Positions 5,828 to 61,962 of a stretch of 64,000 nucleotides of DNA are shown here, in pieces. The stretch comes from Cristatella mucedo (taxonomy: Eukaryota > Bryozoa > Phylactolaemata > Cristatellidae). Within the stretch, counting starts at the first letter, position 1; each line of letters opens with the position of its first letter. Made by a program: the position numbers and the translations under genes. The notes under the pieces were generated by a model that was not told where the DNA came from, did not search any database, and worked only from the letters and a program-made list of their open reading frames with translations. The stretch covers positions 2,316,001 to 2,380,000 of the forward strand of contig WPIO01000055.1 in NCBI GenBank assembly GCA_009760855.2, read 5' to 3'.

Positions 5828-8751
5828 CTGCAATCCGATAGTAAAGTGCATGCAAATTAAAGTGAACAGGGTCAGTGATGCTCGTGTCCAGCTGGACAAA
5901 GAAGCACGGCAGAAACGCACAATACATATAAAGCCAGAACATCGGGCCACCAGCAATGCGTACGAGCATGCAGTAAAAGGTGCAGTGCAGCAAGGAGATC
6001 GCATCGGTAGCAAGAACTGGGCACACGCACATCTGTTGTGCAGCATCAGCAGAGCGCAGCTGTGTGTAGGCACGGTGAGCTAGCCTGGGAGCAAGCTCAG
6101 CACCACAATCGTAACTTATCTGACGCCTTCAGCACTCAATTTCGTGCACAGACTGACTCATTGTCTCTTGTGGCTCATGTGCATGGCCCTATTCATATCA
6201 AGGGTCACACACTCGACCAGATTTTCTCATGCAACTGCACTTTGACATCACCGATTATTACCAATTCCTGCTTATCTGATCACATGCAGATCTCATTCAA
6301 TCTACAGTGTGTGCCCGCCTCTTCCTCTAAAAATAACCTGTGAATCGCGAAACCTCAAGACCCTTGACATCGATGCTGTCCGTGCGAGAATATCTCCTTC
6401 ACCTCTGCTGCTCAGTCATCCCTCCGATCTGTCATCATTGGTAGACAGCTACAACACGACACTAGCTGACACGCTCGACGAGTTTGCACCTCTGACCAAG
6501 CGCACTGTGCACCCTCGCCCAGACGGCCTATGGTTTACCACAGACATTAAACTAGCCAGGTCGACAATGCGCAAGCTTGAAAAAGCATACAAAAGATCAG
6601 GACTGACTGTCCATCGACAGGCATATGAAGATTACTGTAGGTCGTGCCAATCGATCCTAGCAAAGGCCAAGTCTAGCTTCTATACAATAATTTTTGAATC
6701 ACAGATGCACAATCCAAAAATGCTGATGCCTACGATCAATCATCTCCTCAACCGCTCCCAGATTAGCTCCTTACCAGGTGTTACTTGTGATGATCTAGCC
6801 GATCGCTTCTCTCGATTCTTTGTGCAGAAGATAGACAAGATCAGGGAGTCCATCCCTTCGATGACAACATCCCAGTATAATGCTGTTCCCCGATTCCTGG
6901 CTGCACCTCAATGTCTGCATTTAAGCAGGTCACTAGTGATCTCGTCCTGAAGTTCATATCCCAATCAAAGAAGACAACAAGTCCTCTGGACCCTATTCCC
7001 ACTGTCCTGCTCTTACGTTGCATTGATCTGCTGCTACAATGCATAACTAACATCATTAATATGTCATCAGCCTCAGGTGATGTCCCAGCACCTTTCACAA
7101 AAGCTGTAGTCAGGCCACTTCTCAAGAAAGCGACACTAGACCAAGAGAACTTGAGCAACTACCGCCCAGTCTCCCTTCTGCCATTCCTATCAAAGACACT
7201 GGAACGGGTCGTGGTGGACCAGCTGAACTCATATATCGAAACTTCAAACCTTGCTGGTAAGTTCCAGTCTGACTTTAGAGCAAATCACTCCACTGAGTCA
7301 GCATTGCTTAGGGGATACAACGACGTACTTAGGAAAGCAGACATGGGTAGAGTGTCTCTGCTTGTTTTGCTCGATCTTTTGGCAGCTTTTGATACCACCG
7401 ATCACAAAGTTCTTCTAGAGCGCCTCTCATCTCGCCTGGGCATCACTGGCACTGCTCTGCAATGATTCAGGTCGTATCTCAGTGGGAGACTCCAGAGTAT
7501 TGACGTGAATGGACAAAAATCATCCGAGGTACCTCTGAAATATGGAGTACCTCAGGGGGCCGTGCTAGGTTCGGTTCTCTTCACGGTTTATACTCTCCCT
7601 CTTGCTGATGTGATTGCCAAGCACAATCTAGGCTTTCACTTCTATGCGGATGACACTCAGTTGTACCTTTGCTTTGATCCCTCCCAGCCTTCGAGCACCT
7701 CGAATTCTCTCAACTTACTTGCTGCATGTATTGATGACATCCGCACATGGATGGCAGCAAATTTTCTAAAACTAAACGATGATAAAACTAACTTACTAGA
7801 TATGGGCAAACCCAGTGTGATTCAGAAATTGGAAAGGCTGAAGCTCAAAATTGGCTCTGCCAGCATATCTCTTGTTGAATCAGCTCGAAATCTAGGTGTC
7901 AGGTTCCAAAGTGAACTCTCGTTAGACGACCACATCAGCTCCACAATCAAGTCTGCCTACTTTCAGCTTCATAACATTGCTAAAGTTCGGGCTTGTTTAG
8001 ATAAGGATACCATGTCTAAGCAGGTCCATGCATTTGTGACACCTTAACTTCTGTAACTCACTGCTTGCTGGTCTACCGGCATGTGCAATCAAGCGATTAC
8101 AGCTGGTGCAAAACTCCGCAGCTAGGCTTGTCTGTCGTGAGCGTCACAATTGCCACATCACACCACTTCTCGCCGATCTGCACTGGCTACCAGTCAAGTA
8201 ACGGATCGACTTCAAGGTTTTGTTGCTCCCTTGTAGGTCACTTCATGCTTTGGCTCCAGCCTATCTCTCAGATCTACTCCACCAGGCCAAGCATCGTACC
8301 ACCTGCTTTTCGGAATCCAACAGTTTACCAATACCTCGTACAAACCTCAAATCCTTTGGAGACCGTGCACTGAGTTCGTATGCTCCCAAAGCCTGGAACT
8401 CCCTCTCGACTTGCGTCTGAAAATCCCCTGACTTGACCACATTTAAAAAGAACTTAAAACACACCTATTTAGGACAGCATTTAGTGGGTCCCTGTGATTC
8501 GTCCTTGATGTGCTTATGTGTGCTGACACTGTGCATGCTGCCACTAGCCACATGTGCATGCTGACCCTGAGCATGTCACCCCTAACCATGTTATTCATGT
8601 TGTTTATCAAGCATGATATTACTCACCGTGTCAATCGTGTTTCCCTTTGCAGCAAATGTAAAGCGCCTAGAAAGAGACTTAGTTCTCCGAGGGCGCTTTA
8701 TCAAGTGCATTATTATTATCATTATCGTAGCTAGCACTCGCTCACACTTAC
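5828..8751 (-). other. intron of the coiled-coil gene
   Basis: This interval is defined by the GTAAGT donor at 8,751 and the AG acceptor at 5,829-5,828 on the minus strand. Nearly all of it is an antisense L2-A insertion. The rest is unremarkable. Confidence 0.65.
6100..8740 (+). mobile_element. L2-A LINE, longest copy, degraded
   Basis: This is the longest L2-A copy here. It holds the end of the endonuclease (…GHTLDQIFS…SDHMQISF, about 6,125-6,305), the linker and the reverse transcriptase. The RT catalytic motif FYADD has YADD codons at 7,643-7,654. Next come the C-terminal HLDFCNSLL-like region (frame-disrupted), the 3' UTR, the terminal hairpin and a TTA tail. The frame is broken several times. 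A Trp codon present in the copy at 29.4 kb is TGA at 7,463-7,465. The 5' end is lost in the endonuclease. It lies antisense inside an intron of the coiled-coil gene. Confidence 0.93.
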
Positions 8752-9055: not shown

Positions 9056-9232
9056 ATACTAGCTGATTTAACCGTTTTCCTTGTATGGCGACAGAAGAGC
9101 CTTTACGGCTATCACCACCGCTTGCAGCCAGCGGCGATAAAGTATCGCCCACAGCAGGATTCGAACCCACGACCTCGGGGCCGAGGTCGTAAAAAGCAAC
9201 AGCCTTACTGAGTGTGCCATCACGGCTCTAAG
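9056..9232 (-). mobile_element. SINE1, tRNA-derived
   Basis: On the minus strand it has a pol III-type A-box region, a B box (GGGTTCGAATCC), a conserved body (CACTGCAAGCGGTGGTGATAG type) and the 3' end AAGGCTCTTCTGTCGC…GGCTGTTTAATCAGCTA. It matches copies at 11.0, 15.1, 20.4 and 61.8 kb. Confidence 0.85.
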
Positions 9233-10930: not shown

Positions 10931-11030
10931 TAAGTGCAGAGCGCCGTCCCTGCATCCCTGGCCGCCAAATGACCCGGCGACGCCCAAATAGGTCAGTACT
11001 GCCGGCAGTACTGGTGGCAGGGGCAGTACG

Positions 11031-11194
11031 AGGTAAGGCGGCTGCTTTCATGACCTCGGTCGCGAGGGTTCGATTCCTGCGGTGGGCGATCCTTCATCGC
11101 CACTGCAAGCGGTGGTGACAGCCGTTAAGGCTCTTCTGTCGCTATACTAAAAGAGGCTGTTTAATCGGCTAGGATTTATTTATTTATTTATTTA
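11031..11194 (+). mobile_element. SINE1, 5'-truncated, (ATTT)n tail
   Basis: It contains GAGGTAAGGCGG, a B box (GGTTCGATTCC), the conserved body and the 3' end AGAGGCTGTTTAATCGGCTA followed by GGATTTATTTATTTATTT. Confidence 0.85.
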
Positions 11195-12029: not shown

Positions 12030-15000
12030 TGGCATTAGAAAGGGGTCGGCGTTTTACAATAAGCCGACAAAACCGCGAAGGACAAAAGCACGCCGACAAA
12101 TTCGCTCCCGCAATAATTTTAAACAACGCTCGTTTGAATAGATAGTCACAATAAAGTATTTACTAGAGAAAATGAATACAAAATATAACTAGCATCGCAT
12201 AATGTATGCCATCTTTCAAATATTTTTGAAACCGTATAGATATCTACGAAAAGTTAATGTAGCCTAATAATGTGGGCCTATTTGTTTATTAGACGCTAAG
12301 TTTGCGTTCTATTCCTTGAAGGTAATCTCCCACTAGGGCTGTACCGAGGTGAGTATTTGATGACGCGAGCACAAATATTCGGATCCCACGAATAACTGCG
12401 ATACAGCTGCCATTTCCACAATAAACATCATAACGACGCGGTTTCAATTCAAAGTTATACAGAATGCAATTTCGCTTTCGCGTTCTCAAGCTACGACCTC
12501 AAATGACTCGGATCGGCCTGCTTACTCGCACATTCGAATGGCGGTAAAGCAGCCATTTAAAAAAAAACTAAGCAACATTGGTTTATAGAGAACAGTATGC
12601 CAAGTCTACGCCACTAAATTTCGTGGGATTGCACACATTCACACTCTCCTGCTTCGGCCTCCGACGGCCCGGCCCAAATGGCAGCCAAAAGCATTTGAAT
12701 TACGATAAAGCTGCCGCTTCCGTATAAGTGCTTTGCACAATCACGGTTCTGACTCCAAACTATAGACAGTAGTGCTCTACGTCTATCTACCATATTTCAT
12801 GCAAGATTGGGCTTTCGCGTTTTTTATGCCATGGCCTCCAGTGGCCCAGCCCAGATGGCAACCCTAAATAATGGAGAACGGCGATACAGCTGCCATCTCC
12901 ACGATATCCGTTTCGCAAGTGAAGTTTCGATTGCACAATGTGATATAGCTGCCATTTCCGCAAAGAACTTTTCGCGGCAAGTGAAGTTTTGCTTGCAGAT
13001 TATGGAAAACAGTGTCCCAGGTTTATCCACCAGATATCATGAGAGGAAAACAGTATCCCAGGTTTAACCACCAGGTATCATGAGATTGCACTAGCGCGTT
13101 CTCACTCTAAGGCCTCCGATGGCCCGGTTCTAAAGGCAGCCCAAAACATTCAAACGGTAATAAAGCTGCCATTTCCACAAAACTTTTTGCGAAACTGCGG
13201 TTTTGATTCCAAACTATAGAAAATCGTATTCTAGGTTGACCCATCGAATTTCGCTTGCACATTCTCAGGCTATAACCTCCAATGGCCCGGCCCAAATAGC
13301 GGTCCAACATAGACTAACTGCGATACAGCTGCTATTTCCACAAAAGGCTTCGCACAATGGCAGTTTCGATTTCAAATGATACATAACCGTGCTCCATGTT
13401 AACCCATCAAATTTCATGCAATTTCGCTTTCGCGTCGGCATGCTATGGCAACCAGTGGCCCGGGCCAGCCAGCCTACCTACATAACCAAACTGCGATAGA
13501 GCTGCCATTTACACAATAGGCGTCGCGAAGCTGCGGTTCTCATTCCGCATTTTAGACAGCAGTGTCTCGGGTTTAATAACTAAATTTCATATCGTAGTGC
13601 ATGGGCTTTCCTATGCTATGGTCTCCGATAGCCCGGGCCAGCCAGTTTCCCTGCATATTTCAACTGTGATACAGCTGCACTTTCTACAATAAGCTAATGA
13701 GCAACATTGCGTTTGATTGCAAGTTACAGAAAACAGCGTTCCGGGTTTTTTCATGAATTTCGCATGCTCATTCTCACAAAATGGCCTCCAATGGCCCGGG
13801 CCAGCCAGGCTCCCTACATAATCGAACTATAATACAGCTGCCGCTACCACAGTAAGCTACGGTTTTGATACCACTTTGCAGAAAATCATGCTACGGATTT
13901 GCCGATCAAATGTCACGGCATTTCGCATGGGCGTTCTCATGCTATGGCCTCCAATGACCCGGACCAGCCAGCCTCCCAATATATTCCAACTGAAATACAG
14001 CTGCCATTTCCACAATGGGCATAGCGTAATTAGTGTTTTCATTCCACAGTAGAGAAAACGGTGGTGCGGGCTCACACTCAAAATTTCGTGCCATTTCGCA
14101 TCCGCGTTCTGAAGCAATGGCCTCCAATAGGCCGGGCCGCCGTGCAATTTCGAACTGCGACACACAGCTGCCATTGCCACAATAGGCTTCGCGAAACGTC
14201 GGTTTTGATTCCGCCATATAGACAAAGCCGTAATCTGGGTAGATCAAGCAAATTTATTGGCGTTTCGCATGGGATCGCTCACGCAATGCCTCCAATGGCC
14301 CGGACCAGCCAGCCTCCGCACATAATCGAACTGCGATACAGTTCCTATTTCCACAATAAGAAAATAAGTGTCGAGCGCCTGGGGTTTTGACTTAAATGTA
14401 TAGCAAACAGTGGTCCAGGTTTACTGACCAAATTTCACGCTATAGTCCAAGCCCGTTCTCATGCAATGGCCTCCAATGGTCCCGCCCCCATCCGCCCGCT
14501 CCGCATTTTCGAACTGCGATGCTTCTACTGCTACTCATGCTGTAGAGAAAGCGTGACCAAATGATAAGTAAAAAATAGTATTCGCAATGATACCAATCAC
14601 GACATTGTTAGATGTGACATGCACAGGGTCAACATATAAAAATACGGTTTCTTTCAATAGGCGTCGTAAAATCAGTTTTAATTGCTTATTATGGAAAACA
14701 GGGTTACGGGTTTACACACCAAATTGCGTGCCATTGCGCTATAGCGGTACGTTGCTTTGGCTTCCGATGGTCCGGACCATTGGAGGCCATAGAATTTGAA
14801 CACGCCTGTCCAATGTCAGGAAAATAGGTGGACAAACCCGAAACACCTTCGCTATAACGCGGGCAAAAAACCGCAGTGTTACAACACCTATTGTAGAAGT
14901 GGCGGCTGCATCGCAGTTTGAATATTTTAGGTGGCTGACTGGTCCGGGTCATTTTAAGCCGCAACATGAGAACGCGGTCGCATGAAATTTTTAGGGTGAG

Positions 15001-15895
15001 CCCACAACACCGTTTTCTGTACACTGAAATAAAAAAAAGCACTAGTAAAGCGTCTAGTGTGGCAATTGCAGCTGCATCGCGGTTGGAATGCGTAGGGAGG
15101 CTGGCTGACCAGGGCAATTAATAATAAATAAATAAATAAATGCTAGCTGATTTAACAGCCTCTTTTGTATAGCGACAGAAGAGCCTTCACGGCTATCACC
15201 ACCGCTTGCAGTGGCGATAAAGGATCGCCCACTGCAGGATTCGAGCCCACGACCGCGGGCCGAGGTCGTGAAAAGCAACCGCCTTACCTAGTGAGCCATT
15301 ACGGCTCAGTAATTGGAGGCCTATAGCGTAAGGAACCCCTTGCGAAATGCCGTAGAATTTGGTTGGTAAACCCGGAAAACGGTTTTCTGTAAATTAGTAT
15401 CAAAACCGCAATTGCGAAACGCTTACTGTCGAAAAAGCAGCTATATCGCGGTTCAATTATATTGGAAGGCGGCTGGCTGACCCAGGCCATTGGAGGCCAT
15501 TGCATAAGAACGCCCACGCGAAATATGCAATGAAATTTGATTGGTAAGCCCGGAAAAATGTTTCCTATTGTGTGGTATCGAAACAGTAGTTTGAGGCCGT
15601 CTATTGTGGAAATGCCAGCTGTTTCACAGTTCAAAAATGTGGGGAGGCTAACAGGCCTGGGCGTCGGAGGCCATAGCGTGAGATGGCACGAGCAAACTCG
15701 CATGGAATTTGGTGAGTTAAACTGGACAATTGCTTTCCATGATTTGCAACCCAAGCCACAGCAGCGAGAAGCTAGTTATTGAAACTGAAGCAGAACTATT
15801 GCAGTTTGACAACATAGGGATTAGCCATTTGGACCGGGCCATCAGAGTCCGCAGTCAGAGAACGTGCAAGGGCAGCCCTTGAAATTTGGTCGGTA
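12030..15895. mobile_element. satellite-carrying element, copy 1
   Basis: The left end (about 12,030-12,400) is non-repetitive and matches the right end of copy 2 (54,515-54,860) in inverse orientation, including ATTTTCTCTAGTAAAT and TAGTGGGAGATTACCTTCAA. Next come about eleven degenerate ~170-bp units in plus orientation, with the GGCCTCCAATGGCCCGGGCC landmark at about 12,656, 12,830, 13,110, 13,270, 13,444, 13,617, 13,779, 13,942, 14,116, 14,285 and 14,464. Six or seven units follow in minus orientation to about 15,890. The orientation switches at the palindrome GGTCCGGACC (14,769-14,778). A SINE1 interrupts one minus unit, and an L2-B adjoins the right edge. No protein is encoded. The layout recalls bivalve 'pearl' elements and Helentron-derived non-autonomous elements, but the link is only by analogy. 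Confidence 0.7.
15118..15307 (-). mobile_element. SINE1 inserted in the ~170-bp repeat array
   Basis: A complete minus-strand SINE1 with an (ATTT)n tail. It splits a repeat unit at GGCAATT/AATTGG, leaving AATT on both sides as a possible short target duplication. It is younger than the array unit it interrupts. Confidence 0.85.
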
Positions 15896-17735
15896 ATAAT
15901 ACTATAATGTAATGTATCTTCGTCTGTAACTCCACAACGCCATAAAAACTAAGTGGGTGTTACGCAGGAGAGTTTTGTACAGCACACTCACAGCCTAAGC
16001 GGCTTTCGGTACGCATTCGGTAGCCAACACACTTCGTCTCACGCAACAAAGAGAAAGTGGGAAGCATAGCAGAGTCAGGAGAGCAGTTGAGGTAGTGAGT
16101 AGCATGGAAGTAGCAGATCAGGACCACTGAAAAGGATGAGCCATAGTCGGCAGCAGGAGAGTAGTTGTCGTTGCATAAGAATTGTGGAAGCGAATTCCAC
16201 GGTCTAGGACCTGCAGAGCTAAAGCTTCTGTCGCCACAGGTCTTTACGCAGAGGAATGGAACAGCTAATTTATTGTTCACACAGGACCTCAGGGCACGAA
16301 CAGGCTGAAACTAGTGCAGCAGTTCAGTTAGGTACAAAGGAGCCCAGCCGTGGCGGGCCTTGTGGGTCAGCGTAAGAACTTCGCTTTGTATCCGTTGCTC
16401 AACCGGCATCCATCCTAGCTCTTTCAGCAGTGGAGACACTTGCTCAAACCTCTGGGACTTGAAGACTAGCCTTGCAGCCATATTCATAGCTAGATGCAGT
16501 GGCCTAGTTGCTTTCTTTGGTAGCCCAGCCAAAAGGGAATTATTATAATCAAGCCGAGACAGAACTAAGGAGTTAATTAAATTGTTTGCAAGCCACTGTG
16601 GAATAGAGCTCCCAATCTTGGATAGGGATCGGATGTGATGGCTAGCTGTAGAGGCAGTCTTCTGAATGAAGCTTTTGAAATTGAGGCAGCTGTCGAACGC
16701 GACACCTAGATTACAAGCACGTGGTGAAGGTCGCACAATAGCATCACCTATTAGAACAGCAAAGCCTTTTAATCCAGCCACACGCTTAGGGTGTCCTATG
16801 AGCAGCAGTTCGGTTTTATCGTCATTTAATTTCAGGAAGTTTTCCGACATCCAGGATCGAATATCGGCAAGGCAAGCATTCAGTTTGTCAGTTGCTGCAT
16901 CAGATTCCGACGTTTTGAATGACAAACACAACTGAGTATCGTCAGCATAGGAGTTATATCCTATTCCATGGGCCTTAATCACTTTTCCCAGAGGTTGTGT
17001 ATAAATGGAGAACAGCAAGGGACCAAGTACAGACCCTTGAGGGACTCCACAGGTGACCGTCTCGTGTGTGAGAAATGACCCTCACACGACATGGATTGAA
17101 CACGATCAGACAAGTACGATGTAAACCATGCCTGTGCCTCGTCTGGCAGACCGATCGTTGTTCTCAATCGTTCAAGTAGAACATCGTGATCAATGGTGTC
17201 GAAGGCGGCTGACAGATCTAGCAGAGCTAGGGCAGTGACATTCCCGTCGTCGTTGCCACGTAGAATGTCATTGTTAACACGGAGGAGAGCAGTTTCAGTG
17301 GAGTGATGCCTCTTGAACCCTGATTGAAATTTTTCTGACATTTCATTCTTTTCAATATGTTCAACCAGTTGCTTAGCAGCAATATTTTCAAGAATCTTTG
17401 ACAAGAAAGGAAGAAGGGAAACTGGGCGATGTTTGCAAGGACCTCTGTATCTAATCCAGGCTTTTTAAGAATGGGCCTAACGATTGCCGATTTGAAGGAC
17501 TTGGGGATGACCCCTTTTCCCAAAGAAGCATTACAAATCTCGGTTATGGCAGGGCTAAGTTGGTGTGCCAGTGAAGACCACAGCGATGATGGTATACCAA
17601 TGCTCGCAGTGTCAAGGCACCGCATTGTCGCTGCTCGATCAATCGCCATCTGGGGACTTATCGCAGACGATAAAGTGCTCCAGCTACTAGAGACCCTTCC
17701 TTTGCGGTGCGGCTGTTTCAAAAGCTGGGTAAAGA
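15896..17735 (-). mobile_element. L2-B LINE, longest copy
   Basis: On the minus strand it encodes the end of the linker and the RT palm (ALLDLSAAFDTIDHDVLLERL at about 17,170-17,235). Then come the YADD catalytic motif ([11 protein letters not shown]), [34 protein letters not shown] and the C-terminal WNSLPQFLCN region. Frameshifts near 17,400 and 17,050, and a break near 16,300, show it is inactive. Its 3' terminus is GGAGTTACAGACGAAGATAC, followed by a short ATTACATTATA tail. The family belongs with CR1/L2 elements by its RT and C-terminal motifs. Confidence 0.92.
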
Positions 17736-18080
17736 ATTACAGTCGAGGTACAATCTACGAAACTACGGTAACATCTTCATCTGCGGCCTGCACTGTGGCG
17801 CTTTCTCTAGTAGTATTTTACAGTGACAGTATTTTATTATTTTATTTTATTTTATCTACAGTATTTTACATTTTATTTCTTCTTTTTCTCTTTAGTATTT
17901 TACAGTGACTATACAGCCACGTGATTCGGCTACGAACTCTTGCTGTTCGTACTCCACCCTGCTTTCTGAGGCCGGCGCTCGGAGCCATGGCGGCACGAAC
18001 TTCCGGCCGCCTTCCTTGCTACAGGGCTCTGCGGCGAAAGCACAGAAAAAGAGATGAAAAAAAGAGAAAATGCAGAAAAA
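17736..18080. other. AT-rich spacer
   Basis: TTTTATTTTA-type runs (17,830-17,900) and no recognised gene. Confidence 0.4.
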
Positions 18081-18875: not shown

Positions 18876-19587
18876 GATCACGTGCTCCCTCTGCTCATTG
18901 CATAATTTTAACGCAATTTCTACTCTTACAGCAATCATCCCGTCCTGCTTTAAACACGGTGCTACAGAGTGCCCGGTGAGCCCTCGGGGCAATCAAATTC
19001 CTTTGAGACACCGAGCAAAAGCTAGCCAATCAGCAAGTTTTCGCCGTATTTCAAAGTATATCAGTCTTCTTCGCAGCTTTCAAGGTCGGCGCGCCGGCCC
19101 AAACGACGAAACGACGGAAGCGGAAGGAGAGGAGCGCGGTAAGAGACGCTTGAGCAGCGCTGCAGCACTCGCAGTGTGCTCGAGCCCGTTGAGCTGCCAG
19201 CGCAAAGCAATCGAGGACTCAATAATTCAGCGACTAAAAGTCGACCGATAGAAATGCGGCGACGCACTGTGCTTGCACGAGAGCGATTCGCATCAGAAGA
19301 AGATAAGCCGAGATTTCACCGTCAAAGCGCCGGCGCTAAATGTCCTAAATATGTCTCAAGCATGTCTCGCCAGCAGGCACTACTCACTGGCCTGCCAGTA
19401 TCGCCGACAACCGGACGACGCGCCGCAGCCGCCATGCTGGATCTAAGGACACCCACCTGCGTTGCTCCCCGATAAAAAGGAATAAAAACTAAATCAAATG
19501 TGCGTTAAAAACCCCCAAAAATAAATATTTATATTTTAACGAAAATTGTATTTCTTTTTTCTTTATCGCCTGATTGATTTCGTTACG

Positions 19588-19625
19588 ACGATTTCAGGTG
19601 CCCCCTTGAGCGGACACATTGGATA
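19588..19625 (+). promoter_or_regulatory. FBXO33 5' leader with possible 3' splice site
   Basis: GATTTCAG ending at 19,597, with a T-rich tract upstream, would make a good acceptor 28 bp before the FBXO33 ATG. The gene may therefore have a non-coding first exon further upstream. I see no clear TATA box. Confidence 0.35.
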
Positions 19626-27308
<7,683 letters not shown>

Positions 27309-29230: not shown

Positions 29231-29232
29231 AA

Positions 29233-30675
29233 AGTCAGCATTGCTTAGGGTATACAACGATCAACTTAGGAATGCAGACATGGGTAGAGTGGCTTTACTT
29301 TTTTTGCTCGATCTTTCGGTAGCTTTTGACACCATCGATCACAGAGTTCTTCTAGAGCGCCTCTCATCTCGCCTGGGCATCACTGGCACTGCTCTGCAGT
29401 GGTTCAGGTCCTATCTCAGTGGGGGACTCCAGAGTATTGACGTGAATGGACAAAGATTATCTGAAGTACCTCTGAAATATGGAGTACCTCAGGGCTCCGT
29501 GCTAGGTCCGGTTCTTTTCACGGTTTATACTCTCCCTCTTGCTGATGTGATTGCCAAGCACAATCTAGGCTTTCACTTCTATGCGGATGACACTCAGTTA
29601 TACCTTTGCTTTGATCCCTCCCAGCCTTCGAGCACCTCGAATTCTCTCAACTCACTTGCTGCATGCATTGAAGGCATTCGCACATGGATGGCAGCAAATT
29701 TTCTAAAACTAAACGATGATAAAACTAACTTACTAGTTATGGGCAAACCCAGTGTGATTCAGAAATTGGAAAGGCTGAAGCTCAAAATTGGCTCTGCCAG
29801 CATATCTCCAGTCGAATCAGCTCAAAATCTAGGTGTCATATTCCAAAGCGACCTCTCGTTAGACGACAATATCAGCTCCACGGTCAAATCTGCCTATTTT
29901 CAGCTTCATAATATTACTAAATTTCGGGCTTGTTTAGATAAGGATACCACGTCCAAGTTGGTCCATGCATTCGTGACATCTCGTCTCGACTTCTGCAACT
30001 CACTGCTTAGTGGCCTACCAGCATGTGTGATCAGGCGATTGCAGCTGGTGCAAAACTCCGCAGCTAGGCTTGTCTGTCGTGAGCGTCGCAGTTGCCACAT
30101 TACTCCACTTCTCGCCGACCTGCACTGGCTACCAGTCAAGCAAAGGATTGACTTCAAGGTTTTGTCACTCACTTTTAGGTCACTTATTCTTTGGCTCCAG
30201 TCTGTCTCTCCGACATACTCCCCCGTCAGGCCAAGCATCGTACGACCCGCTTTTCGGAATCCAACAGTCTAGAAATACCTCGTACAAACCTTAAATCCTT
30301 TGGAGACCGTGCATTTAGTTCGTATGCTCCCAAAGCCTGGAACTCCCTCCCGACCTGCGTCAGAACATCCCCTGACCTGACCACATTTAAAAGGAACTTA
30401 AAAACACCTATTTAGGACAGCATTTAGTGGGTCCCTGTGATTCGCCCTTCACGTGCTTATGCGTGCTGACACTGTGCATGCTGCCACTAACCACATTTGC
30501 ATGCTGACCCTGTGCATGTCACCCCTAACCATATTATTCATCTCGTTTGTTTTTCAAGCATGATTTTACTTACCATTCAATTGCATTTCACTTTGCAGCA
30601 AATGTAAAGCGCCTAGAAAGAGATTAAGTTCTCTGAGGGCGCTTTATCAAGTACATTATTATTATTATTATTAAA
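29233..30675 (+). mobile_element. L2-A LINE, 5'-truncated, well preserved
   Basis: An uninterrupted 343-codon frame (29,241-30,272) covers the RT from the palm (LFLLDLSVAFDTIDHRVLLE) through YADD (29,580-29,591), [29 protein letters not shown] and ADLHWLPVKQRIDFKVL. A one-base deletion near 30,180 shifts the end (NSLEIPRTNLKSFGDRA continues in another frame). The 3' UTR follows, with a terminal hairpin (AAAGCGCC 30,606-30,613 pairing with GGCGCTTT 30,638-30,645) and (TTA)n. The element lacks the endonuclease half. Confidence 0.95.
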
Positions 30676-33090: not shown

Positions 33091-34755
33091 GAACTCTGAT
33101 TGTTTCAACCAGTGGCGGGGGGGGGGCAGGGGGGCTTGCGATCCCTCCTCTATATCGGGATCGGGCCGTGTGCTCTATTCTGTGTAGCTCGGGGAGGGAG
33201 GTCCTTCCTCTGTAGCGGGAGGGGGCAGGGGCGTTTCCTCCATCCTCTGTAGCGGGGACGCTTTGGTCGCTCCCTGTTCTCACGAACCCCCAACCGTCAC
33301 CAATGACGAAATTCTGCTTTACTTCTATTCGATAAGCAATCGCCCAATTCGTCTTGAAAAAACTACGACTGCGAGCTAAACTGTTCATTCCTTGCGGAGC
33401 TTACCGCCGAGCTGAAACTACTGAGCCGAAGACAAATGTCGTCCCAGCTTGAAGCTGAAGTGAGACAGAATTGGTGGCAGAGGCATAGGCATGCTTGAGC
33501 CAAGGAGTGGCCAGACCTTGACCCTTCCACGATCGCCTGGTTTTACGAAGGCTGAAGGGCGTCTCAGAGCGAGACCGTCCATTTCCGGTCATTGCAAGGC
33601 GCCTATCAATGTCTGTAGGCACTTGCTTGGTCTCGATGCTGCCGTTTTGAGCGTTAGATGCAGCGGCTCTTGAGTTCCAGCAGGGAGACCCGAAAGTACC
33701 GAGCGGAAGTAATCAGTCGTGCTAGGGAGCTAGCGATTCAAGCAGCCCAATGCCCGTGGGGATAAAGCCAAACTTTGAGCAATTGTCTTTGGCTGGAGAT
33801 GAGACTGAGCCGTCAGTCTTAACGATGCGCTTTTCCAAAATAGGTTGACAGTAACTTGATTCACTCGTCATTCAGACGAATGCTCTATTCTGAAAAAATT
33901 TCACGTAATATCGAACGGTTGAGTACAGTAATGCTCGATTTACATGCTATCGCATTTACTATTCGACACTTGAATGCATAAGCAGGTAGTTTCAGGATGT
34001 AAACGATGAAGAGTTGGTTCTTGCCGCCATTCTGCTTATAGATTTTCAGAATAAATGGATGTATTCAATAATAGCATTTAATTTATTTTCAAATTCCAGT
34101 GAGTAAGAGATATCTGTTTTCATCAGACTAGGAGATTGTCGGAAATTAACCAACTAATGGCTGGTAAGCATTTAACAGAGATGCCTGAACCCGAGGGAAC
34201 AAATGAAGATACAGCCGAATGCCGTCTGCATAAAATAAAACCAAATGCTCCCAATTAAACAGAGAATGCAGGTAGAGACCATCAAGGAAGACACCGCTAT
34301 GCTATGCCCAAAGGTTAGATTAAAAAAGTAGTGTCTGGTATAGTCTCGCAAGCCCCGCCCGCCCGCCCGCCCAGTGCATGAAAAGGGTGGGTCGACTCAC
34401 TCATACTTGAATTTCTATACGGCGTCTTCACTCGGATTTTGGCTGACCTTACCTCTCTCTCGAAAAACACTCGATGTTTATAGACCAAAGCCGTAACAGG
34501 CAATTGCTAGAGGACGGAGAGTCAGGCCAGAGTGATCGCAAAATGTAACTCAGTAGGTAGAAGCTACAGGTGAAACGCATGTGCAACTTAGCAGTGATAC
34601 TGTTGATAAGCTATAACGCTGAAAAATCCAGCAATAATTAACATAAAACCCTGATTAACTATCGATCGGTTATAGAGCGGTGGCCACTGGATGGGGGCAG
34701 GTTCCGGAACACAGCTGTTCCATTCATGCGTGTTCTCGCTGCTAGCGATTCTGCG
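33091..34755. other. no recognised gene (upstream of ARFRP1)
   Basis: There are G-rich direct repeats near 33,115-33,260. On the minus strand at ~34,395 a GTGAGT donor follows a short open frame (34,503-34,396). This could be a divergent transcript starting near the ARFRP1 promoter, but the support is thin. Confidence 0.35.
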
Positions 34756-35364
34756 ATGTTTGCGTTATTTTCGGGTCTGTGGAAGTATCTGTTCCAAAAA
34801 GAAGAATACTACGTCCTAATTCTTGGCCTAGATAATGCAGGGAAAACTACGTATCTGGAACAGACGAAGACCAAGTTTAATAAGCATTACAAAGGTACGA
34901 ACCTATCCAAAATAACGGCCACTGTAGGCCTCAACATTGGTGAGGTTGCCATCGGAAGGCTTCGACTGAATTTTTGGGACCTTGGCGGACAGGAGGAGCT
35001 GCAGTCTTTGTGGGACAAGTACTATGCCGAATGTCATGCTATAATCTATATAATAGACAGCGCAGACGGTAACAGAGTCCAAGAGTCTAAGAACGTATTC
35101 GACAAAATGATCGGGAATGATCACCTGCAGGGCGTGCCGCTCTTAGTAGTCGCGAATAAGCACGACATTCCAGATTGTCAGACCGTTCCACAAATAAAGA
35201 CGATTTTCAATACGGCCTCGCATCGGATCGGCAGGCGAGATTGCAGCGTCATGTCGGCCAGTGCCCTCCATGGAGACGGCATTCAGGAAGGCATCGACTG
35301 GGTCGTCAGGTGCGTCCAGAGGAACAAAGTTGAGCGGCCGCCAGCACAGACAGACATTAGCTGA
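34756..35364 (+). CDS. ARFRP1: ADP-ribosylation factor-related protein 1, intronless
   Basis: An ARF-family small GTPase of 202 residues (the human protein has 201). G1 is GLDNAGKT (24-31), the switch I Thr is in TVGLN (56-60), G3 is WDLGGQE (74-80), G4 is NKHD (134-137), and G5 is in the SASALHGDG region. GRRDC and the C-terminal RPPAQTDIS are typical of ARFRP1. The frame opens ten codons earlier, but Met-Phe at 34,756 matches the family start. Position 2 is Phe, not the Gly needed for myristoylation; ARFRP1/yeast Arl3 instead uses N-terminal Met acetylation and Sys1. It acts at the trans-Golgi, upstream of ARL1 and golgin recruitment. The whole gene is one exon, whereas vertebrate ARFRP1 has several, so intron loss or a functional retrocopy is likely. 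No poly(A) tract remains. Confidence 0.95.
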   Translation: MFALFSGLWKYLFQKEEYYVLILGLDNAGKTTYLEQTKTKFNKHYKGTNLSKITATVGLNIGEVAIGRLRLNFWDLGGQEELQSLWDKYYAECHAIIYIIDSADGNRVQESKNVFDKMIGNDHLQGVPLLVVANKHDIPDCQTVPQIKTIFNTASHRIGRRDCSVMSASALHGDGIQEGIDWVVRCVQRNKVERPPAQTDIS

Positions 35365-42590: not shown

Positions 42591-44300
42591 TACTTGCGCG
42601 ACCCGCTGCGGACACTCGCGCTATTGCGGCACTCGCTACGGCTAGCGCCCGATGTGCGGGCGACGCTGCTTAGCAGTTCACGCTGCCTGAACGAGCTAGA
42701 TTTCGTAGCGACTTTTTAAACCCGACAGTAACCAAGGCAACAGAACGTCGCGGAGACGGAGCTCTGGAGGCGGTGCCGAACGGAGCGGTTGCCAGCGTCG
42801 GCGTCCTTGACTGGTGCGCCAGTTTCCCGCTGCCCGCCCTCTCGCGGCGAGCGCATCCTCGGGGCTTCGTTGCAGACGGCCGCGTCGCCCAGGAAGACGC
42901 TGCGCCGATAAAAAGAGGGGGCTCGACCCGCGCGAGGTCACCCGTTGGGTCACTGCACTCGGGACAGTGCACACACGCCACCTCCTTCCAGCGGTCCAAG
43001 CCACTCCTCAGCGCCTCACTGGTCCCCGCCGTCGTCGGTGATTCGTTGCGTCTGTCCGTCCGTGCGGCGGCTCTGGCGGAAGAGGCCCGCGCGCCCCTCT
43101 GACGCGTTAATTGACACTCGAACTGAAGCGACGGCTCGCGCGTCAGCTACCGCAACGCTCGTCTCGCGGCGAGCACTTAAGAGAGCGGCGGCGGCGGCGG
43201 CGCCGCCGCTCTCTTAAGTGCTCCGCGTAAGCTACCGAGCGCGTCGCGAGCGCGACGCAGCCCGCCGAGAGCTCGTCCCGTCGCAGCGCGCACGCGGCTG
43301 TACGAGCGTGAAGACGCCACTCCGTCGGCAGCGCCCCGCCCGCGTTCCTCGCCGCCGCAGCGTCGCGGCGTCGACGCGAAGGGCGAGGCTGGCGAACGCG
43401 GCGAGACGGCCCGACGCAACGGCGCTCGCCGACTCTCGCTAGGAAGCTAATCTCGCTAGGAGGCTAATCTCGCTGCGTCACTACTAAACGACTACTTTGC
43501 GAGCGGCGATAAGGCGCCGCAGTCGTCAGCCGGGGCGGCGGTCGTCGTTCCGGCGGCCGCCGCGCTTCTGATCGATTCTCAACTTATTGACGACGGCGAC
43601 AGACGGTGGCGCCAGAGCAGACGATAAGAGAAAGAGAGAGACGGAGGGGTCAGTCGACTCCGTCCAATCCGCCGTCGCGATTAGACGTCGTGCTCCTCCG
43701 CAATCGTTCCGGCTTCTGAAAAGCGGCAGCGGTGCACTTTATGAACCGCTCGCATTTGGAGCGGAACTACCTCCCCCCCCCCGCCGATCGGCGAGCCGAC
43801 AGCGAGCCTCGCTCTCGAGCGAGCGGTAGCGAAAAAAGAGCCGAGACGCAGCGCTAGCTGCAAGGCGGCGCTGGACGCTGTTGCACACGTGACTTCGAAC
43901 GCGAACCCGTGAGAGCTACTCGAATTCGTTGCGCCGGCGGCCGCCGCAGCGTCGGGTCGTCGTCGCACGGCAGTTTACGAACAATAGGAGGTTTTCGGCA
44001 TAAATCGTGGAAAAAACTCGATTGTGAGAGCGTGAGAGCTTTGCTAAGAGTGAGGCTTTGCGCATGAGTCGGAGAGACAACGAGTCAAGCCATGGTATTC
44101 GCAGAGGTTCATTTGGAATGAAAGTCGAAATGAAAGTGGAAGCCGCCGGAAGTCCGAGTCGCCGGAAAGTGACGGCTTGCGAAGCGCTGAATAGCAGTGA
44201 GGTCGGAAAAATCCTAAATAATGTAAATATAAATAAAATAAATATGAAAAAATAAAATCCCTAAATAAAGCAAGTTGGGTCGTAAACAGACGTAATTACA
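42591..44300. other. GC-rich island, coding status unresolved
   Basis: High CpG and GC content with open frames of 60-110 codons on all frames and none with a recognisable domain. Possibly a promoter/CpG-island-like region. Short AT-rich sequence resumes after about 44,200. Confidence 0.35.
43171..43223. repeat. perfect 23-bp-arm hairpin
   Basis: 43,171-43,193 (GAGCACTTAAGAGAGCGGCG plus GCG) is exactly complementary to 43,201-43,223, with the 7-base loop GCGGCGG. Confidence 0.95.
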
Positions 44301-44310
44301 AAAAATATTG

Positions 44311-45165
44311 GTAATAATAAAAATACACCTGATAGCGCGCCCTCAGAGAACTCAATCTCTTTCTAGGCACTTAACAATTGCTGCAAAGGAAACACGATTG
44401 AATGGTGAGTGGTAGCATCCTTGATAAACAGCATGAATAAAATGGTTAGGGGTGACATGCACAGGGTCAGCATGCAAGTTTGGTTAGTGGCAGCATGCAC
44501 AGTGTCAGCACGCATAAGCAGTTGAAGGACGAATCACAGGGACCCACTAAATGCTGACCTAAATAGGTGCGTTTTTAAATGTGGTCAAGTCAGGGAATGT
44601 CGTGACGCAAGTCGGGAGTGAGGCTCCAGACTTTGGAAGCATACGAACTAAATGCACGGCCTCCAAAGCATTTGGGGTTTGTACGAGGTATAGGTAAACA
44701 GTTAGATTCCGAAAAGTGGATGGTACAATGCTTAGCCTGGTAGGGCAGAAGATCTGAGAGATAGGCTGGAGCCAAAGAATGAAGGGACCTAAAAGTGAGC
44801 GACAGAACCTTGAAGTCGATCCGCTGCTTGACTGGTAGCCCGTGCAGGTCGGCAAGAAGCGGTATTGTGTAGCAGCAGCGATGCTTACGACAGACATGCC
44901 TAGCTGCAGAGTTTTGCACCAGCTGTAAGCGCCTGAGTGCACAGGCCGGTAGACCAGCAAGCAGTGAGTTACAGAAGTCAAGACGGGATGTTACAAATGC
45001 ATGGACCAACTTAAATATGGTATCCTTATCTAAAAAAGCCCAAATTTTAGCAATGCTATGTAGCTGAAAGTAGGCAGACTTGACTGTGGAGCTGACGTGG
45101 TCGTCTAACAAAAGGTCACTTTGGAACATGACACCTAGATTTCGCGAAGATTCAATTATCATATC
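44311..45165 (-). mobile_element. L2-A LINE, 5'-truncated
   Basis: The minus strand carries a 190-codon open frame with [38 protein letters not shown] and DLHGLPVKQRIDFKVLSLTF, then the 3' UTR, terminal hairpin and tail. A frame change lies near the C-terminus. Confidence 0.95.
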
Positions 45166-45387
45166 ACAGGAGGACCTGGAAAAAGAGGAGGCGACAGATT
45201 ACTGCCACCACAACGCAACTCGAGGTTGCATTGACTGAGCGAACGAAATTCGAAGGGCTACTTTGGAGAGGGCTGCAAACGGCTTCAGATCGAGGGCACG
45301 GTCGCAAGTCAGCTGACAGGTCTGCTGGCTGCACCGAGCCTCAGCCCAGACGCGAGTGCGGCAGTGGTCTACGCAGTGGTCTAGTTC

Positions 45388-45432
45388 CGACGTTGGGACG
45401 GGCGACTTCGGACGTCGCCCGTCCCAACGTCG
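45388..45432. repeat. perfect 19-bp-arm hairpin
   Basis: 45,388-45,406 (CGACGTTGGGACGGGCGAC) pairs exactly with 45,414-45,432. The loop is 7 bases, TTCGGAC. Confidence 0.95.
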
Positions 45433-46897: not shown

Positions 46898-47930
46898 CAT
46901 TAATAATAATAATAACAATAACAATGCACTTGATAAAGCGCCCTCAGAGAACTCAATCTCTCTCTAGGCGCTTTACATTTGCTGCAAAGGGAAATGCAAT
47001 TGAATGGTGAGTAAAATCATGCTTGAAAAACAAACGAAATGAATAATATGGTTAGGGGTGACATGCACAGGGTCAGCATGCAAATGTGGTTAGTGGCAGC
47101 ATGCACAGTGTCAGCACTCATAAGCACATCAAGGACAAATCACAGGGACCCACTAAATGCTGTCCTAAATAGGTGTGTTTTTAGGTTCCTTTTAAATGTG
47201 GTCAGGTCAGGGGATGTTCTGACGCAGGTCGGGAGGGAGTTCCAGGCTTTGGGAGCATACGAACTAAATGTACGGTCTCCAAAGGATTTAAGGTTTGTAC
47301 GAGGTATTTCTAGACTGTTGGATTCCGAAAAGCGGGTCGTACGATGCTTGGCCTGATGGGGGAATATGTCGGAGAGACAGACTGGAGCCATAGAATGAAG
47401 GGACCTAAAAGTGTGCGACAAAACCTTGAAGTCAATCTGTCGCTTGTCTGGTAGCCAGTGCAGGTCCGCGAGAAGTGGAGTAATGTGGCAACTGCGACGC
47501 TCACGACAGACAAGCCTAGCTGCAGAGTTTTGCACCAGCTGCAATCGCCTGATCGCACATGCTGGAAGGCCAGTAAGCAGTGAGTTGCAGAAGTCGAGAC
47601 GAGATGTCACGAATGCATGGACCAACTTGGACGTGGTATCCTTATCTAAACAAGCCCGAAATTTAGCAATATTATGAAGCTGAAAATTGGCAGATTTGAC
47701 TGTGGAGCTGATATGGTCGTCTAACGAGAGGTCGCTTTGGAATATGACACCTAGATTTCGAGCTGATTCGACAGGAGATACGCTCGCAGAGCCAATTTTG
47801 AGCGTCAGCCTTTCCAATTTCTGAATCACACTGGGTTTGCCCATAACTAGTAAGTTAGTTTTGTCATCGTTTAGTTTTAGAAAATTTGCTGCCATCCATG
47901 TGCGGATGTCATCAATGCATGCTAAATAGA
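46898..47930 (-). mobile_element. L2-A LINE, 5'-truncated, young, with 14-bp TSD
   Basis: The minus strand has an uninterrupted 251-codon frame (47,895-47,140) from [19 protein letters not shown] to the native C-terminus FKRNLKTHLFRTAFSGSL, then the 3' UTR, terminal hairpin and a TTATTATTA tail. CATTATAAATAGAT is repeated exactly on both sides. It lacks YADD and everything upstream. It is the best-preserved 3' half in the window. Confidence 0.97.
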
Positions 47931-47944
47931 CATTATAAATAGAT
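47931..47944. repeat. target-site duplication, right copy
   Basis: CATTATAAATAGAT, the 5'-side partner of 46,884-46,897 for the minus-strand L2-A. Confidence 0.9.
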
Positions 47945-53448: not shown

Positions 53449-53529
53449 ACATACGTATGTAGGCACAGTAGCAAAAGCGCACAAAACAAAAGCGAGCAAT
53501 GCTAGCAACCCCAAAAAATGCTTCCACAA

Positions 53530-54860
53530 AAATGCATTCATTTTCATAGCAGCTCAAGGGCGTTCTTATGCAACGGTCTCCGACGGCCTGGGCTAGCCAG
53601 CCTCCCTACATATTCCTCCCTACATATAGCCAGCCTCCCTCCATACTTCGATACAGATTCCATTTCCATAAAAAAAACTTCACAGCTGGGGTTTTTATAT
53701 TAATTTTCAGAAAACCGTTTTCCGATTTTACCAACCGCATTTCACGGCATAGCGCAAGGCTTTCTAAAGCCTTGCGCTATGCCGAGGTATGCTACGAGGG
53801 CTATGGCCACCAATGGCCAGGCCCTCGTAGACAATATACCATAACAATACACCGTATTAGCGCAATCGCATTGAATTTGATGCGTAAACCGAAACACTGT
53901 TTTCCATAATTAGCAATCAAAACCGCAGCCCGATTATTTAGCACTGCCATCTGGGCCGGGTCACAGGAGGCCACTGGAGGCCGGGCCACTGGAGGCCATG
54001 GCGACATGGAGGCCATGGATGTCGCGAAAGCGTAATCGCAGGAAATCAAGTTGGTACTCGTGGAGCACTGTTGTCTGTAATTTGGAATAAAAACCGTCGT
54101 TGTGAGAAGCTTTTTGTGAAGACATCAGCTTTATTGTAATTCCCATGTTTTTGGCTGCCATTTGGGATGGACCATCGGAGGCCACAGCATGAGAATGCGT
54201 CAGGATAATCGTATGAAATTTGGTGGCGCCAACGGCATACTATTCTAAATAATTTGGAATCGGGTTCCGCAGTTGCGCAAAGTTTTTTTTTAAATGGCAC
54301 CTGTATCCCCGTTCGAATGTATAAGTACGTTTACCGACAGACCCGGGGCCATTTGAGGCCATTGCACGAGAAAGCGCTAGCGTAATTGCTTGAAATTGAT
54401 TGGTTACCTGTAAAATAATTCTGTATAATTTGGAATCAAACCGCAGTGTTCTGATATTTATTGTGGAAATGGCAGGTGTATCACAGTATGTCGCAGTTAA
54501 TCGTGTCACCCGAATGTTTGTGCTCGCGTCATCAACAACCTACTTAGAAACAGACCTAGTGGGAGATTACCTTCAAGAAATAGCACAAATCCTGAGCATC
54601 TAGCTTAAAAATTGGCTAAAAATGTTAGCTATATTAACTCTTTTTATACAACTGCATCATTTCAAAGTATATTTAAAGCTGACATATATTATTAAGTGAT
54701 GTGAGCTATACTATATATTTATTTTCTCTAGTAAATGCGCCGATTATAAATATATATTTAAACCAGCATTCGTTAAAATGATTTTCTTCGCTCTTTTTTC
54801 GGCGCGATGTCGTCCTGCGATATATTGTCGGGTGACCGTGCGCGTATTTATCAGACCTTT
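53530..54860. mobile_element. satellite-carrying element, copy 2 (inverse orientation)
   Basis: Units in plus orientation begin at ~53,540 (GTCTCCGACGGCCTGGGC). They meet minus-orientation units at a palindrome with 19-bp perfect arms (53,745-53,763 and 53,766-53,784). The minus units run to ~54,500 with landmarks near 53,945, 54,158 and 54,336. Then comes the single-copy end 54,515-54,860, which is the inverse complement of the left end of copy 1 (GTGCTCGCGTCATCA, TAGTGGGAGATTACCTTCAA, TTTTCTCTAGTAAAT). So both copies read end, units in one sense, palindromic switch, units in the other sense. It is shorter than copy 1 and has no coding capacity. Confidence 0.7.
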
Positions 54861-61799: not shown

Positions 61800-61962
61800 G
61801 ATGGCACACTAGGTAAGGCGGTTGCTTTCGCGACCTCGGTCCCGAGGTCGTGGGTTCGATTCCTGCAGTGGGCGATTCTTTATCGCCACTGCAAGCGGTT
61901 GTGATAGCCGTAAAGGCTCTTCTGTCGCTATACAAAAAGAGGCTGTTTAATCAGCTAATAAT
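61800..61962 (+). mobile_element. SINE1, near-complete
   Basis: GATGGCACACTAGGTAAGGC, B box GGTTCGATTCC, conserved body and 3' end. Its expected AGGATTTATTTATTTA tail is found only at 62,585-62,604, beyond an L2-A insertion. Confidence 0.9.

Follow-up and report, generated by a model that had tools for sequence, protein, structure and literature searches.

A stretch of 64,000 nucleotides from the bryozoan Cristatella mucedo (GenBank assembly GCA_009760855.2, contig WPIO01000055.1, positions 2,316,001 to 2,380,000 of the forward strand), here called the window, contains two copies of a repeat locus in which a non-repetitive end leads into a run of ~170-bp tandem units whose sense is reversed at a palindromic switch. 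This raises the question of what kind of element carries such an array, and how it has been scattered. A preliminary description of the window regarded the end and the array as one mobile element. Our results indicate that the locus is very probably a nested pair of DNA transposons, a foldback lying within a Mutator-like element (MULE) of the Phantom/Muta type, and that the pair has spread as one unit.

The two-sense design is real in both window copies. Positions 12064-12851 align with the reverse complement of 53979-54831 at 67.8% identity over 864 columns (E 2.8e-82), and an nhmmer profile of the unit (170 positions) matched only in the two array stretches of the window, with 0 matches in three control windows shuffled in 3-base blocks. 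The copies face each other ~41 kb apart, as they might after a segmental duplication or an inverted local duplication of one satellite locus. In the assembly as a whole (572 Mb, 688 contigs), the end sequence of copy 1, which we call the left end (LE), gave 162 first-look candidates; 40 places were scored and every one was a match, with both strands and many contigs represented. These 40 places comprise 20 read with 9 kb each, 18 read with 0.7 kb each and the two window copies, and the LE profile matched all 22 loci read at length (the 20 fetched and the two window copies). Beyond their ends, the flanks of the window copies have in common only a 30-bp match and an 89-bp dispersed repeat, which lies ~2 kb outward of copy 1 and ~1 kb outward of copy 2; upstream of about 12060, similarity between the two window ends is at most weak. 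The many LE places contradict duplication of a single locus, an explanation to which we assign next to no probability. The preliminary description was therefore right to see a dispersed mobile element rather than local satellite expansion, since its end is neither confined to two loci nor set in homologous flanks.

End and array travel together. LE runs into units at 39 of the 40 places, sometimes into just part of one unit, the exception being locus L025, which has none. A different sequence of ~640 bp, the right end (RE), is common to the full copies and is not a copy of LE. As an independent sample, the inward side was read at 20 further RE loci from 152 listed, and 17 ran into units (L057 and L067 only past other inserted sequence). 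Together, the LE and RE samples argue that the pair spread as a unit. Because RE differs from LE, a simple foldback with an identical unique flank on both sides, after the pattern of Tetris, was ruled out. The change of array sense is present in 16 of the 22 loci read at length, and by eye the centre is one near-palindrome of ~40 bp in 15 of the 16 loci compared; it is degraded in L011, lacks its left half in L029 and has an extra hairpin in copy 2, and the centre of L030 is unlike the others. L024 was considered as a composite inserted in an array and rejected: its array restarts at unit position 30 after stopping near 35, and no target duplication was seen. Phage records gave no match; a 17-base motif of the unit is present in two IMG/VR contigs, as a motif match alone.

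The borders of the array reveal how it came to lie between LE and RE. When units were typed by position (135 units from 15 of the 22 loci), the consensus of the first unit after LE (15 loci) was 98% identical to that of the last before RE (7 loci), and the second to the second-last 92%, with other unit pairs at 76-90%. The outermost units thus match across the ends, and the arms are mirror images. The same terminus, GGGTCCCACGAATAACTGCGATACAGC, stands on both outer ends of the array; the foldback terminus GGGTCCCACGAATAAC is shared by both ends of the inner element, and the inner borders bear GGGTCCCACGAA in mirror image. Directly outside the terminus, the consensus reads CAAACATTC toward LE and CAAAAATTC toward RE, identical at 8 of 9 positions, an agreement with a chance probability of 1.1e-4 at a fixed position. 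When the flanks are joined with one 9-mer, the transposase of L031, a relative in this genome, aligns without a gap at the junction (40% over 151 amino acids, 105 bits); with the flanks unjoined, the alignment requires a gap (99 bits). The gain in score on joining is small, and the weight lies in the continuity of the frame. Long inverted arms of tandem repeats around a palindromic centre characterize the inner element as a foldback, and its mirror termini with the 9-bp repeat mark it as an insertion within the MULE. As judged from its sequence, the array is a foldback that lies in a MULE transposase remnant with one copy of a 9-bp repeat on either side, and the end and array that had been taken for one element would be a MULE and a foldback inserted in it.

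Natural copies of the uninterrupted site agree with this. L025 aligns through the junction of the joined sequence and has the 9-bp site once, at 6/9 identity. L066 has the site exactly as predicted, GAATGTTTG (complementary to CAAACATTC), and only once, with an open junction into LE and no array, and L065 has the predicted site with one change and continues into LE. These three are clear uninterrupted MULE copies. L056 is a probable fourth: its site has two changes and is separated from LE by ~240 bp of other sequence, which by eye looks like a longer tail of the transposase. In the larger stretches around L056, L065 and L066 (L071-L073), transposase similarity is limited to residues 234-363 of L031, so the foldback probably entered a host MULE that had by then been reduced to a short derivative. 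As a marker of pre-insertion copies, the stop codon in the RE open reading frame (ORF) was tried and did not discriminate, because L016 has the same TGG state as L025.

These observations bear on the possibility that the array is integral to the MULE, its internal repeats having expanded and inverted in place with no second element. Such an origin would account for the units after LE at 39 of 40 places, and it has a parallel in aphid Phantom elements, for which the available part of PMC6446971 describes a minisatellite behind the transposase ORF. The 9-bp border repeat and the gap-free alignment of the joined flanks speak against it, as do foldback borders elsewhere without MULE ends (see below), and the uninterrupted L025, L065 and L066 argue further in that direction, L066 contradicting it with its single site and no array. 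We therefore consider an integral array very unlikely.

The outer element can be identified from its ends and its transposase fragment. LE and RE are inverted copies of each other only across the outermost 60-130 bp (profile matches on the opposite strand), and both termini are built, by eye, of ~15-bp minirepeats with the core GACAAAAG. On the strand reading inward, RE carries a transposase fragment that is 43% identical over 116 amino acids to the L031 protein (E 4e-29). L031 and its relative L032, which share ~90% identity, contain open frames of 453 and 435 amino acids (the tail of L032 being out of frame by eye), and their inverted minirepeat ends are made of palindromic GGACAAAATGTCC repeats; the L031 protein lies above the Pfam cut-offs for MULE (2.5e-14) and FLYWCH (1.5e-8), and L031 has a candidate 9-bp target duplication. 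In the family copies read, the FLYWCH part is missing and the middle transposase fragment alone remains. The outer element is a short, dead, non-autonomous MULE, probably of the FLYWCH/Phantom-Muta type, ~1 kb when uninterrupted, without the N-terminal half of the transposase. Similar 9-mers at its two flanks exceed permuted pairs, with P 0.001 for 12 elements (10 of the family and the 2 relatives) and P 0.0035 for the 10 family elements alone. The 152 listed matches to the RE protein were judged by identity and frame length only, L031 and L032 alone being fetched for long frames. Two of these matches, C518:731529-731828 and C550:5295426-5295689 (frames of 494 and 233 amino acids with stops, 54 and 61% identity), are possible fuller relatives of the family. 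Autonomous content was sought in five loci that lack a full array (L012, L015, L018, L019 and L025), and no long transposase frame was seen; several of them have reverse-transcriptase-like frames, and L012 and L018 represent a single duplicated stretch.

Several observations weigh against a nested pair moved by a MULE transposase. The LE query was copy 1's own end and so favours the composite lineage in the LE sample. At single loci the inner 9-mers agree less well than in the consensus, at 7/9 in L014, L016, L017 and L026 and at only 5/9 in L029 and L030, and the border is shifted or eroded in L020, L027 and L028. The family consensus of the RE fragment has one in-frame stop, and the direct Pfam match of the RE ORF to the MULE domain is weak, at E 0.13 below the cut-off. 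The outer target duplications are decayed and significant only jointly, several elements, copy 2 and L032 among them, show none, and the flank scoring (transitions weighted, small shifts allowed) was fixed after the flanks had been inspected. A limited search identified no intact transposase with the LE and RE ends (terminus GGTAACCCGACAAAAG). No transposase is known for the foldback, for which no dedicated search was made. Substitutions in RE by codon position amount to 16, 12 and 14%, with no third-position excess; combined with the mean identity to consensus (LE 84% at 22 loci, RE 82% at 12 loci, units 76.5% at 20 loci), this marks an old family drifting as noncoding DNA, and the copies examined are both old and noncoding.

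The foldback also has borders away from the MULE. The unit consensus gave 1729 candidate places and LE 162, the unit candidates being unconfirmed and a single array possibly counting repeatedly. Among 12 array loci fetched, 4 had LE or RE and 8 had neither, the array extending to the edge of the stretch in 3 of the 8. Of 14 outer array borders inspected, 7 have the terminus beside sequence that is neither LE nor RE, 2 have RE and 5 are unclear; the terminus scores 20-25 of 27 bases at those seven, a level (20) reached by 0 of 2000 random 300-mers. Six borders lie at the foldback terminus with other flanks (L085, L078, L090, L091, L092 and L097, with L089 excluded), that of L085 adjoining sequence like a long interspersed nuclear element (LINE), and L103 has a further border with a non-LE, non-RE flank (20/27). 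The far sides of L090, L092 and L097 were fetched and contained no LE or RE, but no far terminus either. At C665, both foldback termini are present with no LE or RE on either side. We interpret these other sites as insertions of the foldback by itself. In L104 (200-490, C99), two unit arrays stand back to back at one shared terminus, the opposite of the head-to-head centre.

Alternatively, the foldback may be a separate element that was spread exclusively by the MULE, in which case arrays lacking MULE ends would be broken copies of the pair. Arrays do appear to recombine: the array of L089/L099 (C55:2219700-2222630) is bounded on one side by the left end of the MULE, and at its other border the foldback terminus directly adjoins an unrelated flank; these two different flanks suggest that array recombination also shifts borders, this array being a possible product of recombination between arrays. 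Among the 40 best foldback-border places of 1288 candidates, 18 are no more than 250 bp from a listed LE or RE, another 7 have one within 6.5 kb, and 15 are without any listed, the LE and RE lists used for this comparison being incomplete. In addition, the stand-alone copy at C665 has no clear target duplication (~4/9 by eye), and the insertion signature found within the MULE is not clearly seen there. This, like the shifting of borders, counts against independent insertion. On the other side stand the differing flanks of the six borders at the foldback terminus, one of them beside LINE-like sequence, the two termini at C665 with no MULE end, and the excess of unit over LE candidates, though arrays may count repeatedly. 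We regard spread as cargo only as unlikely, and favour a foldback that occupies sites of its own as well as travelling within the MULE.

In the window, copy 1 reads on the plus strand. Its LE (12058-12371 by the LE profile, with the outer edge placed by eye against GGTAACCCGACAAAAG of other copies) consists of terminal minirepeats with the GACAAAAG core, followed by what is left of the transposase gene's 3' side. The LE-side 9-bp target site follows at 12372-12380 (CAAATATTC; family consensus CAAACATTC), and then the inner foldback at 12381-15902, with its left terminus GGATCCCACGAATAACTGCGATACAGC present and its right terminus lost. There are 16 plus-sense matches to the nhmmer unit profile at 12394-14746, from which 14 units were compared (two matches were merged and the partial 14468-14529 omitted), a palindromic centre aligned by eye at 14747-14794, with GGTCCGGACC at 14769-14778, and 5 minus-sense units at 14795-15850 by the unit profile, interrupted at 15123-15308 by an insert resembling a short interspersed nuclear element (SINE). 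The right side is truncated by a LINE 3' end at 15903-15907. Copy 2 reads on the minus strand, with LE at 54521-54837 (alignment and LE profile), the LE-side target site CAAACATTC at 54512-54520 and an internally deleted foldback at 53535-54511. By the unit profile, this foldback has 4 minus-sense matches from 54489 to 53857 and, past the switch at about 53803-53830, one plus-sense unit (53575-53770) plus part of the next; a perfect palindrome with 19-bp arms and a 2-bp loop lies beside the switch at 53745-53784. A remnant of the right terminus of the outer MULE, with minirepeats and a GCTAGCAACCCC motif, follows on the minus strand at 53470-53534 (extent by eye). It is 83% identical over 36 bp to the right end of L026 (E 3e-5), and the RE profile was below threshold there. 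The layout given in the preliminary description was correct overall but overlooked the SINE-like insert, the LINE truncation near 15903 and this far-end trace.

The two arrays share a history. Within copy 1, pairwise identity between units averages 62% (highest pair 75.6%), and equivalent units of the two copies match best, the first at 73%, the third at 75% and the last before the switch at 82%; for the second units the value is 70%, with the next best pairing at 69%. Both therefore derive from one ancestral array, in which the units had already diversified and the switch was present. The middle of the array has since been lost in copy 2.

Other repeats and genes lie around the copies. The SINE-like repeat inserted in copy 1, presumably tRNA-like as judged by eye, recurs at 11028-11192, 20356-20543, 9056-9228 and 61801-61957, these four places being 85-92% identical to the insert. 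The LINE whose 3' end adjoins the copy 1 array at 15903 carries a reverse transcriptase and occupies 15903-17736 on the minus strand, and similar LINE 3' ends lie at 2062, 57181 and 58419. Further reverse-transcriptase-like frames were recognized by eye at 6246-8047, 29232-30272, 44590-45198 and 47140-47943, Pfam RVT_1 having been checked for 29232-30269 and 16311-17078 only. An uninterrupted frame of 240 amino acids at 34642-35364 encodes an ARF-family GTPase (Pfam Arf 7.3e-46), which we take to resemble ARFRP1 or ARL, and a frame at 19578-20114 has an F-box (Pfam F-box-like 1.7e-9). Perfect inverted repeats at 43171-43223 and 45388-45432 (arms of 23 and 19 bp, 7-bp loops) are unrelated to the element.

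The nested pair can be compared with several known systems. The preliminary description had compared the unit length with the tandem cores of Helentron-derived elements (HINEs) and bivalve pearl elements. As far as the available part of PMC7492417 describes them, oyster Cg_HINE/pearl elements are mobile elements that contain short, dispersed, satellite-like arrays with units of similar length, and their Helentron-type ends are made of subterminal inverted repeats and a 3' palindrome. The cores resemble the dispersed ~170-bp units found here, and copy 2 adjoins a microsatellite. The Helentron-type ends are absent from the window family, which has inverted termini with a 9-bp-type duplication, a MULE transposase remnant, and two-sense arrays with mirror ends; the fit is poor, and on these ends, remnant and array design we rejected this identity as extremely improbable. 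To our knowledge, Cg_HINE/pearl elements make no target duplication. The two-sense array with a palindromic centre, which had been called unfamiliar from those elements, is that of a foldback and occurs also in Drosophila FB.

Among published foldbacks, such a design is known from Tetris and Galileo, which we compared by description only and from those parts of the sources available. Tetris of Drosophila virilis has an external flanking domain, ~220-bp tandem repeats, an inverted second arm and target duplications of 8-10 bp, is nonautonomous, and its repeats seed satellite arrays (PMC4079207). The pair resembles it in flanking domain, tandem-repeat arms, inverted second arm, target duplications and nonautonomy; the flanking domain of Tetris is its own terminal inverted repeats, whereas the flanks here, LE and RE, differ and belong to the host MULE. 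Galileo, of the P superfamily, has long, internally repetitive inverted ends that resemble Foldback (PMC4168063, PMC3573991); it is like the inner element in these ends but differs by its P-type transposase. For the outer element, the available parts of the sources offer two relatives. The Muta1 and Muta5 MULEs of Aedes aegypti, assigned to the Phantom family (PMC6446971), have FLYWCH transposases (416-554 amino acids), target duplications of 8-9 bp, subterminal tandem repeats of 12-15 bp and many nonautonomous derivatives with foreign internal sequence (PMC5225508). The family shares with them its probable FLYWCH MULE kinship, short subterminal tandem repeats and nonautonomous copies with a foreign interior, but no 170-bp inverted satellite cargo is described for them in those parts. 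Likewise, the Tm1 Mutator/Foldback family of Meloidogyne has a Phantom-type transposase, composite ends rich in a redundant motif of ~14 bp and 9-bp target duplications, features that recur here, in the case of the transposase only as a probable kinship; its repeats are short and terminal, and the available part of that source describes no nested 170-bp two-sense array (PMC3169594).

In the history that we propose, the foldback would have inserted once into a MULE transposase remnant, duplicating 9 bp, and a trans-acting MULE transposase would then have used the outer ends to amplify the pair to tens of copies or more, the foldback additionally occupying other sites of its own. The enzyme that moved the pair was presumably of the Phantom type, and the 9-bp repeat suggests that the foldback's own transposase was also of the MULE type. 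It is conceivable, although we think it somewhat unlikely, that the foldback lives as a parasite on this Phantom-type transposase and inserted into an element related to its own helper, the 170-bp units offering additional binding sites through which long arrays are maintained; if so, host MULE and foldback cargo would be moved by one enzyme.

What is new here is the spread of a foldback array as MULE cargo with uninterrupted sister copies, the two-sense design itself being known. In the literature searched by title and start of abstract, we found no case in which foldbacks or satellites had spread in nested or composite form, which is not proof of absence in print. Transport of a foldback as DNA-transposon cargo, with a readable insertion site, provides a concrete route by which satellite-like arrays are scattered. 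Since units at equivalent positions are recognizable from copy to copy, the family offers a means of timing the growth, loss and inversion of arrays relative to transposition, which homogenisation normally obscures. In addition, the inverted arrays, being present at many sites, are possible substrates for inversions and other rearrangements.

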